The notes below the pieces were generated by a model. The model saw only the letters and a program-made list of their open reading frames with translations, had not been told where the DNA came from and did not search any database. Made by a program: the position numbers and the translations under genes. Positions 15,760 to 25,184 of a stretch of 64,000 nucleotides of DNA are shown in pieces (position 1 is the first letter of the stretch; every line of letters begins with the position of its first letter). The stretch comes from an uncultured Eudoraea sp. (GTDB lineage Bacteria > Bacteroidota > Bacteroidia > Flavobacteriales > Flavobacteriaceae), in NCBI RefSeq assembly GCF_947490415.1, contig NZ_CANLGX010000008.1, positions 1 to 64,000 of the forward strand, read 5' to 3'.

Positions 15760-15815
15760 GGCCTCATAGTTCAACGGATAGCCCCGATAGCTATCGGGGG
15801 AAGTTTCCTAAACTT
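15760..15815 (+). pseudogene. Broken 5' copy of the tRNA-Arg gene
   Basis: Bases 15760-15781 match the first 22 nt of the intact tRNA-Arg (15862-15883). The next four bases are replaced by an 18-bp palindrome (15782-15799), and the anticodon arm then resumes (gaagtttcctaaactt) before homology ends at 15815. The variable region, T-arm and 3' acceptor strand are missing, so it cannot fold into a tRNA. Confidence 0.8.
15782..15799. repeat. 18-bp perfect palindrome inside the broken tRNA copy
   Basis: CCCCGATAG followed directly by CTATCGGGG. The same CCCGATAGC / GCTATCGGG arms occur in the hairpin at 21596-21641, which supports a dispersed palindromic repeat family. Confidence 0.7.
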
Positions 15816-15861
15816 GCAGGAAGAATAAGAGAAAGTATTTATAAATTCGCAGATTATAATT

Positions 15862-15933
15862 GGCCTCATAGTTCAACGGATAGAATAGAAGTTTCCTAAA
15901 CTTTAGATCCAGGTTCGATTCCTGGTGAGGCTA
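15862..15933 (+). tRNA. tRNA-Arg (anticodon CCU)
   Basis: The cloverleaf can be drawn by eye. Acceptor strands are GGCCTCA and TGAGGCT with discriminator A. The D-arm includes AGTTCAACGGAT. The anticodon stem GAAGT/ACTTT encloses loop TTCCTAA, giving CCU, which reads AGG. The T-arm is CCAGG TTCGATT CCTGG. CCA is not encoded. The total is 72 nt. A promoter-like TATTTTTG lies at about 15720-15727, ahead of the broken copy, so the two may be transcribed together. Confidence 0.93.
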
Positions 15934-15948
15934 CGGATAAGCACAGCC

Positions 15949-16353: not shown

Positions 16354-19300
16354 ATGAAATTGACCCAAAAAGATAAAAATGAAGTAATCCAGGTATATGA
16401 TACCTGGTTAAACAGCTATTTAAACGGTGATGTAAAAACCTATGATTTTTATCTTGATGACGAATACCATTTTATTGGTTCTACCAATAATGAGGAATTT
16501 TTAAACAGAAAAGACACCACTAAATTTTTTAAGGCAACAGCAGATCAGCTGGCTGGAAAAACCGACCTAAAAAACACCGTCAGAACCATTGAATATTTTG
16601 AAGGGCTCGTGTTTGTAACCGAAGTATTTGATGCCTGGTTCCTTATTGGGTCTGACTGGAGTTATTATGGAAGATTCCGGTTTACCTCTGTACTCCGAAA
16701 AAAAAACAATGGATGGCGCTTCATTTATCAGCATTTCTCCATGCCCGATTCCAAGGCCCAACAAGGGGAAACTTTGGGTGCTGAACAAATCAGTAAAGAG
16801 AACCAGGAACTGCGCGACGCCATCAAAAGGAGAACCATAGAACTAGAACAAAAAAATCGGGAACTCGAAATAGAGGCCTCTGTGGAAAGGGTTCGGTCTA
16901 AGGCCATGGCCATGCAGAACTCCGATGAGTTATCTGAATTGGTAGATACTGTTTTTAAAGAATTAACAAAACTTGATTTAGCCCTTTCCTGGTGTATGAT
17001 CAATATTATCGACGAGCCCTCCATGTCAAATATGGTTTGGGGAGCAAATCCGGAGATAGGGAAGGCGCCTGAATCTTATCACATGTTGTTCGAAGACTAT
17101 CGCTTTCATCATGAAATGTTTAAGGCGTGGAAAGAAAAAAAGGATAAATGGGTTTTTGTTTTAAAAGGGGCTGAAAAAGAAATCTATGACACCTATTTAT
17201 TTAATGAAACAGAATTCAGAAGAGTACCTGAAGCCGTACAGAAAGAGATGCGTGCAACAAAACAATATGTTGCTTCTTTCACGTTTAGCAATTTTGGAGG
17301 CTTACAAACTGTTGGTGAAGAACCTTTATCAGATGAGAGCCTTGATATTCTGGGTCGTTTTGGGAAAGTGTTTGACCTCACTTATACCCGGTTTAATGAT
17401 CTGAAACAAGCAGAAGCCCAGGCCAGGGAAGCACAGATCGAAACGGCATTGGAAAGGGTGAGAAGCCGAACCATGGCTATGCAAAAAAGTGAAGAGCTCA
17501 AAGAGGTAATCCAGGTGGTATATGAACAATTCGTTCACTTAAATTTCCAAATTGAACATACCGGGTTTATTATCGATTATAAAACAAGTGATGATATGAT
17601 CATCTGGCTGGCTGACCAGCAGGAGATTCAAACCCAGATAACCTTGCCTTATTTTGATTGTGCGCATTGGAACAGTTTTAAGGAAGCAAAAGAAAAGGGA
17701 TTGAATTTCTTTGCCAACCATCTTGATTTTGAAGAAAAAAACAGATTTTATGAGGATCTTTTTAAGTTAGTTGAAGGTTTGTCGGAAGAAGCAAAGGAAT
17801 ATTATTTCAGTGCTTCCGGCCTTGCCATATCTACTGTGTTGCTGGATAATATTGGTCTGTACATCGAAAATTTTTCGGGGATTCCTTATACGGATGAAGA
17901 GAATAAAACGCTTATGCGCTTTGGAAAGGTATTCCAACAGACCTATACCCGTTTCCTCGATCTTCAAAAAGCAGAAGCCCAGGCACGGGAAGCACAAATT
18001 GAAGCCGCCCTGGAACGTGTACGATCTAAGACAATGGCGATGCATAACAGTGAGGATGTAGGGGCTACCGTAATTACTTTATTTGATGAAGTGATGAAAT
18101 TGGGTCTTGACCAATCTATTCGATGCGGAATAGGGATTCTTGAAGGAACTGAGCGTATGGAAACATGGTCTGCAAATTATTCACCCAGCGGTAAAGTTGA
18201 TTTAAAAATGGGGATGTTAAATATGACCATACATCCCATGTTGGTAGGTCTTAAGAAAGCATGGAAAAGTAAAAAGAAAGGCTATTCCTACGATTTTATT
18301 GGTCAAGACGTTATTAAATATTATACGGCACTTAATAAAGAACCCGAATATCCATTTAATGCAGATTTAAAAACACTGCCGAAAAAAGTATACCACAATA
18401 GTTTCTTTTATTCTTCGGGTATTCTTTTTGCCTTTACAGAGAACCCAATTTCAGAAGAAGCCACTAATGTATTGAATAGATTTACAAATGTTTTTGGACA
18501 AACCTATAGAAGATATTTAGATCTCCAAAAAGCAGAGGAACAAGTAAGGGAGGCGCAGATTGAGGCGGGATTGGAAAGGGTAAGAGCCAGTGCGATGGCC
18601 ATGCGATCCTCGGATGACTTGTTGGAGGTGGCTAATGTTTTGAGGGACCAAATGGCGAATTTGGGCCAGGCGGCCCTGGAGTCTTCTATTATACATCTTT
18701 ACGAAGAAGATAAAGACAAGATTCTTGCCTGGTATTCTTACAGGAATCCGAATTCACCTGAGGATGAAATTATTTCCAATGAAGCCAGGGTAGATAAGAA
18801 ATCAACCGCCTATATTAGGGAGACAATAGCAAAATATAAATCCGGGGAAACAGAATACACCATTGTCGCCAAAGGCGAAATGTTAAGGGAATGGTATAAG
18901 GAATTGGAAAGCCTGGACATCAATGTGATAGACTACGACGAAAATGGAGCCATCATTGTTCCAGACGTATTGTATTATCATTATTCGAATTTTTCAGGCG
19001 GTTCCTTGTTAATGATTTCCAATGACCCACCTTCCGAAGAGTCCAGGGAACTTCAAAAACGTGCGGCAGGTGTTTTTGACATGGCATACAGGAGATTTTC
19101 CGACCTGAAAAAAACGGAAGAGCAAGCCCGGGAAGCTCAAATAGAAGCAGCTTTAGAAAGGGTACGAGCCAGTTCTATGGCTATGCATAAGAGTGAGGAT
19201 CTTCCTGTAACAGCACAGGTGCTCTTCGAACAATTTGCTTTATTGGGCAATATGCCAGACAGGATTAGTATTGGGATCATTAGGGAAGAAGAAAACATCA

Positions 19301-21585
19301 TAGAATTATGGGCTACGGATCAAATTGGTAGTCAGCTAGATCATAAACATAGCGGGCCGTTAGATGAAGCCACAACCATGACTAAAATGCACAAAGCCTG
19401 GAAAGAAGGTAAAGATGCTGTAGTGGTGGACTTGTCGGGCCAAAAACTTAAGGACTGGGTGCGTTATATAAAAGAAGACATGAAGATGTATATCGACGAT
19501 TCCCATATTAAAGGGAGACGAGTGCAACAGGCTGCTTTTTTCTCCAGAGGGATGCTTCTTTGTACTACAAATGAACCTGTTGCAGATGAGATTATGCAGT
19601 TATTGATCCGTTTTGCCAAGGTTTTTGACCAAACCTATACCCGTTTTCTCGATCTTCAAAAAGCAGAAGCCCAGGCTCGGGAAGCACAGATCGAGGCTGC
19701 CCTGGAAAAAGTCCGGGGTAAGGCCATGGCCATGCATCACAGTAACGATCTTGTGGCTACCGCAAGTGTTGTATTTAGTGAATTAAAGAATTTGGGGATC
19801 AAAACCTTCAGAAGCGGGGTGGGATTACTTAGCAAAGAAAACAGGGATGTGGAATTGTATGCCGCTACATCTAAAGATGATGGAGTTGGTCTTTCATTAG
19901 TTGGTAAAGCCGTACTTAAAGATCATCCTGTTTTATCAAAAGTTTATACAAGTTGGATAAACAATAAGGACTATTACCCAATATTAAAAGGCGATTTGTT
20001 AAAACACTTTTATGAACAAATTGAATCGCAATATAAGGTGCCTGCCACCCACATTGAGGGTAATATTCAGTATGGATGCTTCCTTCCATTCTCTGAAGGC
20101 GTTTTTTATGGCTGGTCTCATGAATCCTTTACAGAAGCAGAAATAGCTATAATGCAACGTTTTAACGGCATAATGGATCTTACCTTTAGGCGCTATATAG
20201 AATTGCAAAAGGCAGAGGCCAATGCCCTTGATGCAAATAGGCGCTCATCCGTAGACCGTGTTCGTGCGGAGATTGCGTCCATGAGAACAACAGGTGATTT
20301 GGAAAGGATCACCCCATTAATTTGGAATGAGCTCACCACATTAGGCGTCCCCTTTGTACGATGTGGTGTTTTTATTTTTGATGAACAGCAAGAACAGATT
20401 CATACTTTTCTTTCAAAACCCGATGGCAAAGCCATTGCCGCTTTTCATTTACCTTATGATTCAAGTCCTTTTATCGATGCCATAGAAAACTGGCGTTCAA
20501 AGAGGATTCAGATTATTCATTGGGACAATGAAGGGTTTTCAGAATTGGCAGATACCCTGGTAAAGGAAGGTCAGATTGCCACTCGAAAACAATATTTGAG
20601 CACTGTGCCCAAGGATGGCCTATACCTGCATTACGTTCCGTTTTTACAGGGGATATTATATGTGGGGAACACCACTGAATTAGACGAGGACAGCCTGCAC
20701 CTGGTGCAATCAATAGCGGACGCTTTTTCTACGGCATACGCTCGCTACGAAGACTTTAATAAGCTGGAGGAGGCCAAACTGCAGGTAGAAAAAACACTGA
20801 CCGACTTAAAACAAACCCAACAACAATTAGTACAATCTGAAAAGATGGCATCACTGGGAGAACTTACTGCAGGGATTGCACACGAGATCCAGAACCCATT
20901 GAACTTTGTCAATAATTTCTCGGAGGTAAGTGTTGAACTCATTGAAGAGATGCAGGAGGAATTGGCGAAAGGAGATCTTAAGGAAGCCATAGCCATCGCA
21001 GAGGATGTTAAACAGAACCTGGATAAGATCACCCACCATGGCAAAAGGGCCGATGGGATAGTTAAAGGTATGCTGCAGCACAGCCGCAGCAGTAGTGGGC
21101 AAAAAGAACTTACAGATATCAATGTGCTGGCCGATGAATATTTACGGCTGGCCTATCATGGTTTAAGGGCCAAGGACAAAACGTTCAACGCCACTATGAA
21201 ATCTGAGTTTGATGAAAGCATTGGCCAAATCAATATAGTACCCCAGGATATTGGAAGAGTGGTTTTGAATTTAATTACCAATGCATTTTATGCGGTATCT
21301 GAGAGAAAACTACAACAACCGGAAGGTTATGAACCCACCGTTTACGTCAGTACAAAAAAAACCGGGAATCGGGTTTTGATTTCAGTAAAGGACAATGGTA
21401 AAGGGATACCGCAAAAGGTACTGGATAAGATCTTTCAACCTTTCTTTACCACCAAGCCCACCGGTCAGGGAACTGGATTGGGATTATCCTTATCTTATGA
21501 TATTGTAAAGGCGCATGGAGGGGAACTCAATGTCAAAACCAAGGAAAATGAAGGTACGGAATTTACTATTATTTTGCCGGCATAG
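16354..21585 (+). CDS. Giant soluble histidine kinase with seven tandem sensor-like modules
   Basis: 1,743 residues from the ATG at 16354 (the frame opens one codon earlier with TTG). Residues about 1-135 form a SnoaL/NTF2-like domain (EVIQVYDTWLNSYLNGDVKT, WSYYGRFRFTSVLRKKNNGW). Seven modules of about 180-194 residues follow. Each opens with a coiled segment of the type AQIEAALERVRSKTMAM (DNA near 16876, 17449, 18010, 18568, 19150, 19699 and 20245) and ends like RFGKVFDQTYTRFLDLQKAE; the body resembles a GAF-type ligand domain. The C-terminus is HisKA (His at about 1510 in GELTAGIAHEIQNPLN), an N-box (NLITNAFYAV), G1 (DNGKGIP) and G2 (GTGLGLSL). No membrane helix. It begins an operon with 21719-25184. 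Confidence 0.9.
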   Translation: MKLTQKDKNEVIQVYDTWLNSYLNGDVKTYDFYLDDEYHFIGSTNNEEFLNRKDTTKFFKATADQLAGKTDLKNTVRTIEYFEGLVFVTEVFDAWFLIGSDWSYYGRFRFTSVLRKKNNGWRFIYQHFSMPDSKAQQGETLGAEQISKENQELRDAIKRRTIELEQKNRELEIEASVERVRSKAMAMQNSDELSELVDTVFKELTKLDLALSWCMINIIDEPSMSNMVWGANPEIGKAPESYHMLFEDYRFHHEMFKAWKEKKDKWVFVLKGAEKEIYDTYLFNETEFRRVPEAVQKEMRATKQYVASFTFSNFGGLQTVGEEPLSDESLDILGRFGKVFDLTYTRFNDLKQAEAQAREAQIETALERVRSRTMAMQKSEELKEVIQVVYEQFVHLNFQIEHTGFIIDYKTSDDMIIWLADQQEIQTQITLPYFDCAHWNSFKEAKEKGLNFFANHLDFEEKNRFYEDLFKLVEGLSEEAKEYYFSASGLAISTVLLDNIGLYIENFSGIPYTDEENKTLMRFGKVFQQTYTRFLDLQKAEAQAREAQIEAALERVRSKTMAMHNSEDVGATVITLFDEVMKLGLDQSIRCGIGILEGTERMETWSANYSPSGKVDLKMGMLNMTIHPMLVGLKKAWKSKKKGYSYDFIGQDVIKYYTALNKEPEYPFNADLKTLPKKVYHNSFFYSSGILFAFTENPISEEATNVLNRFTNVFGQTYRRYLDLQKAEEQVREAQIEAGLERVRASAMAMRSSDDLLEVANVLRDQMANLGQAALESSIIHLYEEDKDKILAWYSYRNPNSPEDEIISNEARVDKKSTAYIRETIAKYKSGETEYTIVAKGEMLREWYKELESLDINVIDYDENGAIIVPDVLYYHYSNFSGGSLLMISNDPPSEESRELQKRAAGVFDMAYRRFSDLKKTEEQAREAQIEAALERVRASSMAMHKSEDLPVTAQVLFEQFALLGNMPDRISIGIIREEENIIELWATDQIGSQLDHKHSGPLDEATTMTKMHKAWKEGKDAVVVDLSGQKLKDWVRYIKEDMKMYIDDSHIKGRRVQQAAFFSRGMLLCTTNEPVADEIMQLLIRFAKVFDQTYTRFLDLQKAEAQAREAQIEAALEKVRGKAMAMHHSNDLVATASVVFSELKNLGIKTFRSGVGLLSKENRDVELYAATSKDDGVGLSLVGKAVLKDHPVLSKVYTSWINNKDYYPILKGDLLKHFYEQIESQYKVPATHIEGNIQYGCFLPFSEGVFYGWSHESFTEAEIAIMQRFNGIMDLTFRRYIELQKAEANALDANRRSSVDRVRAEIASMRTTGDLERITPLIWNELTTLGVPFVRCGVFIFDEQQEQIHTFLSKPDGKAIAAFHLPYDSSPFIDAIENWRSKRIQIIHWDNEGFSELADTLVKEGQIATRKQYLSTVPKDGLYLHYVPFLQGILYVGNTTELDEDSLHLVQSIADAFSTAYARYEDFNKLEEAKLQVEKTLTDLKQTQQQLVQSEKMASLGELTAGIAHEIQNPLNFVNNFSEVSVELIEEMQEELAKGDLKEAIAIAEDVKQNLDKITHHGKRADGIVKGMLQHSRSSSGQKELTDINVLADEYLRLAYHGLRAKDKTFNATMKSEFDESIGQINIVPQDIGRVVLNLITNAFYAVSERKLQQPEGYEPTVYVSTKKTGNRVLISVKDNGKGIPQKVLDKIFQPFFTTKPTGQGTGLGLSLSYDIVKAHGGELNVKTKENEGTEFTIILPA

Positions 21586-21595
21586 GTCTGGGGGG

Positions 21596-21641
21596 CCCGA
21601 TAGCTCCTTCTCCACAGTATTACGAAGGAGAAGCTATCGGG
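21596..21641. repeat. Long hairpin sharing arms with the tRNA-linked palindrome
   Basis: CCCGATAGCTCCTTC pairs with GAAGGAG-GAA-bulge-AGCTATCGGG around a loop of about 12 nt. It lies in the 133-nt gap between the two histidine kinase genes. Without a T-run it is unlikely to terminate; it could slow decay or partially attenuate the transcript. Confidence 0.65.
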
Positions 21642-21718
21642 ATGAAGGTGGAAAAAAGGAAAACGAAGGATCAGCATTGAATATTTATTTGCCCTTGTAA
21701 CATAAAATAGTTTACCAA

Positions 21719-23740
21719 ATGACGAAAAGCAAAATAACGATACTACTATGCTTATTTATCATTACTACTATCGCTGCACAAAACCAGCCTATTGTCGATA
21801 GTTTAAAAACGATAATAAATCTGCAAAAACAAGATACCATTCAAGTGAATGCCTTGGTTTATTTAAGCAGACAACAAACACAGGTTGATTCTGCTTTCAA
21901 ATATGTACATCAAGGATTATTGCTGGCGCAAAAAATAAATTACAGGAAGGGGGAAGCAGATTGTTTTCTTCAAATTGGCGGCATAAATAGATTTTTTTTA
22001 AATGATTATAGTACAGGCATACAAAATTTATTTGATGCCCTGAAGATTTACGGTGATATTAATTATACTACAGGTGTTGCTGAAGCGCATTTAAATTTGC
22101 AGGGTTGGTATAGGTATATTGGAGATTACAAAAACGCTTTAATGCATGCCTTTGCCGGCCAGCAAACAGCAGAATCTAATAATGTTGTGGGCAGGGCTTT
22201 TACCTTCGAGGGCCACCGGCTTAACCCGTTGGCTTTAGCTGAAATTGCCGAAACATATATACAAATGAATCAATTAGATTCCGCAGAATTTTATATTCAA
22301 AAATCAATCAATCAAAATGAACTTTTTAATGGCTCAAAATGGAATTTTCCAATCTACATGCTTGGAACCATACAAAACCTGAAAGGGGATTATAAGCTTG
22401 CACTAGCTACTTTTCGCTCGGCAATTCCGCTTGCAATACAAAATGAAACATTCCACGATACTTTACAGATATACAGCGGTATGTCAACCTTATTTAAAAA
22501 CACTAAAGAATTGGATTCTGTTATTTATTACGCCAAAATGGTTAACGAATCTTCTGATCCCGGAAGAGAAACACATTATTGGCTCAATTCAATAAATAAC
22601 ATTGCGCAAGCATATAAACTAAAAGGAAATATAGACAGTACACTTAAATACACTGAATATTTTCATCATGTAAAAGACAGTATTTTCAGCAGGGATAAAG
22701 ATCGTGCGGTGCAGAATATTGGTTTTAATGAAAAATTAAAACAGCAGGAATTAATTTCTGCACAGAACAAATTTAAAAGCCGCTTACAACTTTATGTATT
22801 CATTGCAGGACTACTTGTTCTATTGTTGATTATAGGAATATTGTGGCACAACACTCTGGAAAAACAAAAAGCCAAATCTAAAATTGAAAAAGCGTATAGC
22901 GAACTCAAAAATACTCAATCACAACTTATCCAATCCGAAAAAATGGCGTCATTGGGTGAGCTTACGGCGGGTATTGCCCATGAGATCCAAAATCCTTTGA
23001 ACTTTGTGAATAATTTCTCCGAAGTAAATAGTGAATTGATTGATGAATTAGGCGAAGAAGTTGACAAAGGAAATCTTGATGAAGTAAAAATAATTGCAAA
23101 AGATATTAGGGAGAATGAACAAAAAATTAATTTCCATGGCAAACGCGCCGATGCCATTGTTAAGGGCATGTTACAGCATAGCCATAGTAGTAGTGGGGTA
23201 AAAGAACCTACCGATATCAATGCACTGGCCGATGAATATCTGCGGCTGGCTTACCACGGATTGAGGGCGAAGGACAATTCGTTCAACGCCACAATGAAAA
23301 CGGATTTTGATAAAACAATTGGCAAAATCAATATCATTCCCCAAGACATTGGCAGGGTGGTCTTGAATTTAATTACTAATGCATTTTATGCGGTCAATGA
23401 AAAGGCCACCTCCGCCGAAGCTTCAGGCGACGCGCGGGCAGAGGATACAAAATATGAACCAACGGTAACCGTATCTACAAAAAAAGAAAGTGATAAATTT
23501 ATTGTTTCTGTAGAGGATAATGGCAACGGTATTCCCGATTCGGTTAAGAAAAAGATCTTTCAGCCTTTTTTTACCACCAAGCCCACCGGGCAGGGAACCG
23601 GTTTGGGCCTGAGCATGAGCCATGACATTGTGACCAAAGGGCATGGGGGCGTATTAAAGGTAGCTTCCAAAGAAGGAGAAGGCACTACCTTTACCGTGGC
23701 CTTACCCATTATTAAGGAAAACAAGAAACCTAAAAAATAA
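21719..23740 (+). CDS. TPR-containing membrane histidine kinase
   Basis: 673 residues. Signal peptide (ILLCLFIITTIAAQNQ), then a periplasmic TPR-like helical repeat domain (about 25-345), a transmembrane helix (about 357-378, VFIAGLLVLLLIIGILW), a coiled linker, HisKA with His at about 420 (GELTAGIAHEIQNPLNFVNN) and HATPase with DNGNGIP and GTGLGLSM. The kinase core is almost the same as that of the gene upstream, including identical runs such as SEKMASLGELTAGIAHEIQ, so the pair arose by duplication. A GC-rich insert (ATSAEASGDARAED) sits between N-box and G1 where the upstream gene has a shorter linker. Its likely partner is the receiver 30 nt downstream. Confidence 0.92.
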   Translation: MTKSKITILLCLFIITTIAAQNQPIVDSLKTIINLQKQDTIQVNALVYLSRQQTQVDSAFKYVHQGLLLAQKINYRKGEADCFLQIGGINRFFLNDYSTGIQNLFDALKIYGDINYTTGVAEAHLNLQGWYRYIGDYKNALMHAFAGQQTAESNNVVGRAFTFEGHRLNPLALAEIAETYIQMNQLDSAEFYIQKSINQNELFNGSKWNFPIYMLGTIQNLKGDYKLALATFRSAIPLAIQNETFHDTLQIYSGMSTLFKNTKELDSVIYYAKMVNESSDPGRETHYWLNSINNIAQAYKLKGNIDSTLKYTEYFHHVKDSIFSRDKDRAVQNIGFNEKLKQQELISAQNKFKSRLQLYVFIAGLLVLLLIIGILWHNTLEKQKAKSKIEKAYSELKNTQSQLIQSEKMASLGELTAGIAHEIQNPLNFVNNFSEVNSELIDELGEEVDKGNLDEVKIIAKDIRENEQKINFHGKRADAIVKGMLQHSHSSSGVKEPTDINALADEYLRLAYHGLRAKDNSFNATMKTDFDKTIGKINIIPQDIGRVVLNLITNAFYAVNEKATSAEASGDARAEDTKYEPTVTVSTKKESDKFIVSVEDNGNGIPDSVKKKIFQPFFTTKPTGQGTGLGLSMSHDIVTKGHGGVLKVASKEGEGTTFTVALPIIKENKKPKK

Positions 23741-23769
23741 ATGCAAATAATCAATATACCATAAGACCT

Positions 23770-24144
23770 ATGAAAATTTTAGTAGTAGACGACGAACGAG
23801 ACGTACAATTGCTATTTCAGCAACGATTCCGAAAGGAAATACGAAATGGAATTATGTCTTTTGTTTTTGCCTTTTCTGGTGAGGAAGCACTGCATACTTT
23901 GCGGGAAATGGAGCATAAGGCGGTGTTGATTTTGTCTGATATCAACATGCCCGGAATGAGCGGGTTGGAGCTCTTGGAAAAAATTCGAAAAGACTATGAT
24001 AAACCGCCCCCAACGGTTATGATGATCACTGCCTATGGCGACCAGGACAACCGAGATACCGCCGCTCGCTTGGGTGCGGATGATTTTTTGACCAAACCCT
24101 TGGAATTTGATATCTTAAAAGAAAAATTGAAAGCAATATTATGA
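23770..24144 (+). CDS. Stand-alone response regulator receiver
   Basis: 124 residues, one CheY-like domain only: acidic pocket VVDDE (7-9), phospho-acceptor Asp57 in LSDINMPGMSG, switch Thr in MMITAYGD and Lys107 in FLTKPLEFD. With no output domain, it probably passes phosphate on or acts by protein contact. It overlaps the next gene by four bases (ATGA), so the two are translationally coupled, and it follows the TPR kinase by 29 nt. The most likely phosphodonors are the two kinases upstream. Confidence 0.93.
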   Translation: MKILVVDDERDVQLLFQQRFRKEIRNGIMSFVFAFSGEEALHTLREMEHKAVLILSDINMPGMSGLELLEKIRKDYDKPPPTVMMITAYGDQDNRDTAARLGADDFLTKPLEFDILKEKLKAIL

Positions 24145-25184
24145 CGTCAAAAATACTGGTAGTGGATGATGAGACTGATCTTGAGGTGCTCATCAAACAA
24201 AAATTTCGAAAACAAATACGGCAAAACGAGTATCAATTTGTATTTGCCATCAATGGAAAGGATGCCCTTGATAAACTCCAGATCGAACCCGATATGGATA
24301 TTGTCCTAAGTGACATCAATATGCCCGAAATGGACGGGCTTACCCTACTTTCTAAACTCAACGAATTAAACCCGCTCCTTAAATCGGTGATAGTTTCGGC
24401 CTATGGGGATATGGAAAACATTCGTACGGCGATGAACCGTGGTGCTTTTGATTTTATTACCAAACCCATCAATTTTGAAGATCTTACTATAACTATGGAA
24501 AAGACTTTAAAATATGCCAGGCAAATCAAAGACACACTAAAAGCCGTTAAGGAAAACAATATTCTAAAAATGTATGTGGATGAAAATGTACTAAACTTTA
24601 TGGGCAGTAAGGAATATGAATCTACAATTATGGCCAATGAAAATATTGAGGCCACAGTGATGTTCATAGATGTTTGCGGCTTTACGGCTATCAGTGAGAG
24701 CACCCCGGCCGATGTGGTGGTGAATATGCTGAACACTTACTTCGATATTATGGTGAAGGAAATTATTGCCCAGGAAGGATATGTAGACAAGTTTATCGGC
24801 GATGCCATTATGGCTGTGTTTAGAGGGGAATATCATTTAGATCGGGCCATTGATGTCGCTTTAGCTGTACGTCAAAAAATCAGTAACCTTCCTGAACCCA
24901 AAGGAATTTCGAATTATACTCCGAAAGTATCTATCGGCATCAAAAGCGGCGAGATGGTCTCCGGGAACATTGGATCATCGAGTTTAAAAAGGTTAGACTA
25001 TACGGTAATTGGGGATACCGTAAATACTGCAGCCCGATTACAGGATGCTGCCGGAGAAAATCAAATCATTATTTGCGAGAGTTGTTATGAGGGGGTGAAG
25101 GAATCTTTTCACTGCAAAAAAGTGGGTAGTATCAGCATGAAAAATATAGCAGCCCCGGTTACTGTCTATGAAGTTCTGGAATAA
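24141..25184 (+). CDS. Response regulator with class III adenylate/guanylate cyclase output
   Basis: 347 residues. Receiver domain (1-125) with Asp58 in LSDINMPEMDG and Lys in FITKPINFE; a coiled linker (about 125-160); and a class III cyclase domain (about 165-347) with the first metal Asp in VMFIDVCGFTAIS (about 176), the second in KFIGDAIMAVF (about 220) and the transition-state region DYTVIGDTVNTAARLQ. It should make cAMP or cGMP when phosphorylated. Substrate choice cannot be read with confidence from the motifs. It is the last gene of the signalling operon, followed by a separate promoter for moaE. Confidence 0.93.
   Translation: MTSKILVVDDETDLEVLIKQKFRKQIRQNEYQFVFAINGKDALDKLQIEPDMDIVLSDINMPEMDGLTLLSKLNELNPLLKSVIVSAYGDMENIRTAMNRGAFDFITKPINFEDLTITMEKTLKYARQIKDTLKAVKENNILKMYVDENVLNFMGSKEYESTIMANENIEATVMFIDVCGFTAISESTPADVVVNMLNTYFDIMVKEIIAQEGYVDKFIGDAIMAVFRGEYHLDRAIDVALAVRQKISNLPEPKGISNYTPKVSIGIKSGEMVSGNIGSSSLKRLDYTVIGDTVNTAARLQDAAGENQIIICESCYEGVKESFHCKKVGSISMKNIAAPVTVYEVLE

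Follow-up and report, generated by a model that had tools for sequence, protein, structure and literature searches.

A two-kinase operon with a receiver-linked class III cyclase in a Eudoraea genome: a putative many-to-one two-component switch with predicted cAMP output

Results and discussion

Operon architecture

Do two sensor kinases with nearly the same catalytic core, encoded beside a lone receiver and a receiver-linked cyclase in an uncultured Eudoraea sp., act on one output, and if so, which nucleotide is formed and which protein reads it? To our knowledge, both the role and the reader of cAMP in Bacteroidota are obscure. The available text of a 2005 census reports no adenylyl cyclases in the four Bacteroidota genomes sequenced by then (PMC1183210). 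The window, i.e., the whole stretch of 64,000 nucleotides analysed here, holds at 16354-25184 the four plus-strand genes of the original prediction; open reading frames and Pfam domains agreed with two kinases, a stand-alone receiver and a receiver-cyclase, and the four-gene set is a real operon. Kinase 1 (16354-21585) comprises 1743 aa from an ATG, the ORF tool placing a TTG start one codon earlier. It contains a SnoaL_3 domain (16384-16749, Pfam E 1.4e-20), an array of seven GAF-like units in tandem, each about 187 aa long and joined by helical linkers (16819-20808, from repeat analysis, modelling and PDB fold search) and a core with HisKA and HATPase_c (20788-21582, delimited by Pfam, core identity and core alignment). 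Kinase 2 (21719-23740, 673 aa) has a signal-peptide-like start, a TPR region, one membrane segment and its core at 22886-23707. The lone receiver (23770-24144, 124 aa) is a Response_reg protein with phospho-acceptor D57. In the receiver-cyclase (24141-25184, 347 aa), a Response_reg domain with D58 precedes a class III cyclase domain (24645-25145; Guanylate_cyc, E 1.6e-24).

The expected tight spacing held for the last three genes, less so for kinase 1, since kinase 2 and the lone receiver are 29 bp apart and the two receiver genes overlap by 4 bp, whereas 133 bp (21586-21718) separate the kinases. A hairpin-forming stretch in this gap folded no better than shuffles (z -0.86), and the promoter scan (36 versus 31.8 in shuffles, sd 5.7) and the terminator scan (13 versus 10.2, sd 3.4) stayed at the shuffled level. 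Among the matches listed for eight proteins (the best 25 for four of them), no NCBIfam model scored above its cut-off. HATPase_c lay well above the Pfam cut-off in both kinases; HisKA reached 31.6 bits in kinase 1, above the cut-off, and 21.6 bits in kinase 2, below the cut-off of 26.9, despite a His region identical to that of kinase 1. A kinase with HisKA and HATPase_c and receivers with a phospho-acceptor aspartate, the parts of a two-component system, are thus present. The term phosphorelay, originally applied to the operon, is not supported, because Pfam (E 0.01) revealed neither an HPt domain nor a hybrid kinase in the four proteins; the operon looks like a convergent two-component system.

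Upstream of the operon (window 15761-15934), a complete tRNA-Arg (cct) gene was located at 15862-15934, and before it stands an incomplete copy of the gene's 5' half. This copy is broken by a palindrome, CCCGATAGCTATCGGG, for which the genome has 8 sites.

Recurrence in Bacteroidota

A scan of genome contigs yielded 567 confirmed loci, and in the best 80 of these, which by their record titles we take to be all from Bacteroidota, the receiver-cyclase was 65-82% identical. A lone receiver lay directly 5' of it in 73 of the 80. Four of the seven remaining loci start where a contig ends or close by (L069, L079, L091, L110), and three have no lone receiver directly before the receiver-cyclase (L061, L104, L128); L065 contains a second one. 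The phospho-acceptor D57 was invariant (74/74). Of the genomes sampled, 39 of 397 from the window's family and 26 of 346 from the class had the receiver-cyclase; with 5 to 9 candidates scored per genome, both searches may have missed genes. The cassette recurs across Bacteroidota, but patchily. FIST-type proteins were encoded in one to three copies 5' of the receiver-cyclase in six of the best 80 loci (L058, L059, L061, L063, L067, L071), two of them confirmed by Pfam.

Different sensors on a common kinase core

Hydropathy supported the expected location of both kinases, cytosolic for kinase 1 and membrane-bound with TPRs for kinase 2: kinase 1 has no membrane segment, and kinase 2 has one at 358-376 in addition to its signal-peptide-like start, its TPR matches being below the Pfam threshold. 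The repeats of kinase 1 gave in Pfam just a sub-threshold match to DUF3848 (E 0.0048, 17.3 bits, cut-off 30). One unit was modelled from 66 aligned units, comprising 59 of the 106 repeat units from the loci and the seven from the window, with a mean pLDDT of 94. Because the best PDB matches of this model were GAF domains (4g3v with E 1.1e-5, 3ci6, 5w10, 1ykd; TM-scores about 0.5), we call the repeat a divergent GAF, an assignment that follows the model. In the best 80 loci the number of units per protein ranged from 1 to 16, some proteins being cut by locus ends. In Lutimonas halocynthiae (L125), a 3320-aa open reading frame directly 3' of the receiver-cyclase contains at least 16 tandem GAF-like units and reaches the edge of the retrieved DNA. 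Kinase 1 would accordingly sense in the cytosol through its SnoaL domain and GAF-like repeats, and kinase 2 in the periplasm through its TPRs.

The cores of the two kinases were found to be nearly equal, as predicted, with 72% identity. This likeness is not a genome-wide background, since the next-best paralogue shared only 33%. The best 80 loci contained 143 kinase open reading frames matching the core over most of its length; 137 of them and the two of the window entered an alignment of 139 cores. In the 56 of these loci with more than 8 kb upstream, 2 had no such kinase, 19 had one, 18 two, 8 three, 5 four and 4 five, thus two to five core-sharing kinases in 35 of the 56, all counts being lower bounds because the flanks stop at 10 kb or at contig ends. 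Mean core identity was 70% within a locus (118 pairs) and 66% between loci. Only 18 of 109 N-terminal sensor pairs within a locus were detectably similar, so that kinases of one locus appear to carry mostly unrelated sensors. Pfam matches listed (25 of 50 families) for 104 of the 137 N-terminal parts (130-760 aa, plus strand) included TPR_12 (32), 7TMR-DISM_7TM (10), 7TMR-DISMED2 (7), HAMP (6), SnoaL_3 (4) and Y_Y_Y (3). For 31 of 109 kinases in the best 80 loci the nearest core lay in their own locus; in 100 shuffles this was so for 1.6 kinases on average and never for more than 5. The difference suggests duplication or conversion within the locus, accompanied by exchange of sensors. The operon series offers a natural set for the study of sensor change in kinases with one output kept.

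The residues from -10 to +15 around the His are identical in kinases 1 and 2, and those from -10 to +14 are near-invariant among the 139 cores. Of 60 genomes, that of the window among them, the kinase subfamily (E 1e-70) was present in exactly the 10 whose match to the receiver-cyclase surpassed 1e-100, one of these matches (G005) being partial (residues 128-347). An eleventh genome (G014) had a cyclase fragment only and no kinase of the subfamily; a receiver-cyclase remnant of 142 aa lies near its PycTM gene (L168:6063-7243). The assemblies of G005 and G008 are fragmented, and part of their kinases were on contigs other than that of the cyclase. Conserved His region and shared genomes together make it likely that the kinases have the same receiver partners. 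With phosphotransfer surfaces this alike, kinases 1 and 2 would both phosphorylate the same two receivers, the lone one serving as competitor, sink or second output; the originally predicted merging of cytosolic and membrane signals on the cyclase is argued for indirectly, by these surfaces and by the co-occurrence of kinases and cyclase. The kinases might instead differ in partner, one addressing the lone receiver and the other the cyclase, so that the signals would not merge. Such a division would suit the presence of two receivers that are 46% identical, yet it is an improbable arrangement given the identical His stretch in both kinases, near-invariant throughout the alignment, and given that in the best 80 loci the kinases vary from one to five per locus while lone receiver and receiver-cyclase are as a rule each present once.

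Cyclase residues and predicted product

The two metal-binding aspartates D177 and D221, the base-selecting K217 and T288, N295 and R299 were intact in all 81 receiver-cyclases compared. This is the residue set of an adenylyl-type class III cyclase (class IIIb). The closest solved cyclase domain by sequence was CyaB of Pseudomonas aeruginosa (3r5g, E 1.2e-25), whose aligned base positions are occupied by K and T. The receiver-cyclase therefore probably makes cAMP from ATP. The output, left at cAMP or cGMP by the original prediction, could be narrowed to cAMP as the likelier product because K and T are of the adenylyl type in 81/81; cGMP is disfavoured by the same residues. The adenylyl cyclase would be a homodimer whose activity changes on phosphorylation of the receiver. 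When the pyrimidine pockets of PycC clades D and E, as given in the available part of PMC11224242, were mapped onto the receiver-cyclase, one of three positions (Phe175) was common, while K217, I219 and M224 differ from Arg and Gln of clade E and from Lys and Phe of clade D.

Genes downstream of the cyclase and a candidate receptor

In 16 of the best 80 loci a small PycTM gene followed directly 3' of the receiver-cyclase. HD and/or YitT-DUF2179 relatives were the next gene on the same strand in 21 and on the opposite strand in 6 more, and occurred anywhere in the locus in 36; both downstream types were combined only in L069. In these other lineages, the HD and/or YitT-DUF2179 proteins may remove or read the signal. 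A further stretch with both types, L201, has an HD protein between cyclase and PycTM. MoaE and MoaC were rejected as parts of the system. Both lie 3' of the cyclase in six of nine near loci (L026-L034, with the window's own), and of the remaining three one ends there, but among 21 named loci listed, MoaE occurred in none and MoaC in one (L056), two genes on.

Receiver-cyclase and small PycTM co-occurred in the family sample. Among its 397 genomes, 39 had the receiver-cyclase, 66 a small PycTM and 37 both, i.e., small PycTM in 37/39 genomes with receiver-cyclase versus 29/358 others (Fisher p 1.5e-31, a value too small because the genomes are related and shared ancestry was ignored). By genus, a count that only lessens the effect of kinship, the proportions were 26/28 versus 24/209, and in the 60-genome set PycTM was present in 8/11 with receiver-cyclase or fragment versus 2/49 others. 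In the class sample, only 5 of 346 genomes had a small PycTM, four of them among the 26 with receiver-cyclase. Since these four represent 3/3 receiver-cyclase genomes inside the window's family and 1/23 outside, the pairing is mainly a feature of this family. The surroundings of 69 small PycTM genes were compared. A class III cyclase gene stands immediately 5' in the same orientation in 40 cases (21 times the receiver-cyclase, 19 times another), a cyclase lies farther off in 14, and the fetched stretch contains none in 15; 30 stretches are only about 3.5 kb long, and three reference rows were excluded from these counts. The stretches encode 54 cyclases longer than 200 aa, and 52 of these combine Lys with Thr or Asp. 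The exceptions are one cut-off protein and the L205 cyclase, which stands directly before PycTM and has Gln and Ala; two of the 52, L191 and L198, likewise directly before PycTM, have Gln for the last Arg. The position of the gene next to the receiver-cyclase in some relatives suggests the small PycTM as a candidate receptor for the cyclase signal. A fold search with a PycTM model (pLDDT 78) gave no match at E 0.001. The literature search found no papers on DUF5706, and titles and abstract openings among the matches listed, covering few subscription papers or preprints, held nothing on a pairing of receiver-cyclase and PycTM.

According to the available text of PMC11224242, the PycTM family is a phage-defence effector. 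The operon might be a phage-defence system of the Pycsar type that is governed by two-component signalling, with a cyclic pyrimidine as product and a PycTM that stops or kills the infected cell. PADLOC models for PycC matched the receiver-cyclase (best E 5.7e-24) and those for PycTM matched the partner in L054 (1.1e-28) as well as the PycTM of the window's genome (3.1e-25); Phe175 is common to the clade D and E pockets, and the cassette has the patchy spread (39/397) that is frequent among defence genes. We regard a defence role as having little probability nonetheless, for the other base-contact positions, K217 and T288, are of the adenylyl type in 81/81, and none of seven flanking window genes and neither of two PycTM neighbours matched PADLOC models at E 0.001.

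cAMP-related proteins of the window's genome

The genome of the window encodes a PycTM of 178 aa (G000:C2:214519-215049) on a contig other than that of the operon and with no cyclases as neighbours. It exceeded the cut-off of PF18967 (42.5 bits, cut-off 27.2) and shows two hydropathy peaks indicative of membrane segments. With 51-59% identity to the PycTM of G033, G209, G014 and G017 and 32-37% to cassette-linked PycTM, it belongs to a shorter sub-lineage. In G033 and G209 the gene of this sub-lineage comes after a TPR cyclase that has a K/D pair of the adenylyl type; in G017 no cyclase was found within 12.5 kb. Because its sub-lineage elsewhere often follows TPR-type cyclases, the protein may serve these or the genome's remaining class III cyclases (eight in all), or serve all of them through one cAMP pool. 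An HD-PycTM fusion is also present in this genome (L132).

Gly-Glu...Arg is the phosphate-binding cassette of CRP-type cAMP receptors. The search for a CRP-type binding protein, proposed with the original prediction, returned five proteins of the cNMP-binding (Crp/Fnr-type) family, and judged by eye none of the five has the cassette (motif as in the available part of PMC11224242); a CRP-type receptor is not favoured, and the PycTM appears the better candidate. The operon could still be correctly read up to cAMP and a Crp/Fnr-family or other protein be the receptor, with PycTM, e.g., placing cyclases at the membrane. The five family members, the unlinked position of PycTM in this genome and the 22 of 23 receiver-cyclase genomes outside the window's family that have no small PycTM in the class sample speak for such a receptor. 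We consider it rather unlikely, in view of the missing cassette, of PycTM in 37/39 receiver-cyclase genomes and of its position directly after 19 other class III cyclases.

We judge it somewhat more probable than its negation that many sensors act on one adenylyl cyclase and, through cAMP, on a cAMP-sensing membrane protein, a many-to-one two-component switch for which we infer phosphotransfer, product, receptor and output. The small PycTM, here the unlinked one, would read cAMP at the membrane and respond by changed membrane permeability or signalling, not by killing. A wider reading, possible but falling a little short of even chances, is that in some Bacteroidota cAMP is read by a small two-pass PycTM and not by CRP, that one to five common-core kinases with exchangeable sensors, including GAF-like arrays of up to 16 units, drive one receiver-cyclase, and that Pycsar is a defence offshoot or cousin; if true, Pycsar would derive from or be akin to an everyday signalling pair. 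The cassette would give cAMP in Bacteroidota a defined source, more than one input and a specific protein as candidate receptor, and would tie two-component signalling to the PycTM family.

Comparison with known systems

Several kinases feed one output in the GacS-RetS-LadS network and in the sporulation phosphorelay; here the kinases lie in one operon, share a core but differ in their sensors, and have a cyclase as their predicted output. CyaB of P. aeruginosa, the closest solved cyclase domain and likewise with K and T as base-selecting residues, has another regulatory part in place of the receiver. The cyanobacterial CyaC joins kinase, receivers and cyclase in one chain, whereas the system considered here has four separate genes and, in many loci, several alternative kinases per operon. 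Common to both are the class III adenylyl cyclase and its control by phosphotransfer from a histidine kinase, predicted for the operon and, in the available text of PMC4284465, stated for CyaC as activation; the enzyme is reportedly also the subject of Kasahara and Ohmori (1999). Pycsar, a PycC with PycTM or PycTIR in the accessible part of PMC11224242, resembles the cassette in that a class III cyclase adjoins a PycTM-family protein in some relatives. It differs from the operon of the window, in which K and T are of the adenylyl type, control would be by a two-component system, the neighbours searched include no defence genes and PycTM is unlinked.

A second cluster of kinase (1471 aa), receiver (125 aa) and cyclase (565 aa) is encoded in the same genome (L165, G000:C4:52000-66500). 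In its cyclase, Gln and Ala take the places that Lys and Asp or Thr occupy in the others, and a set of like sizes was observed in L075.
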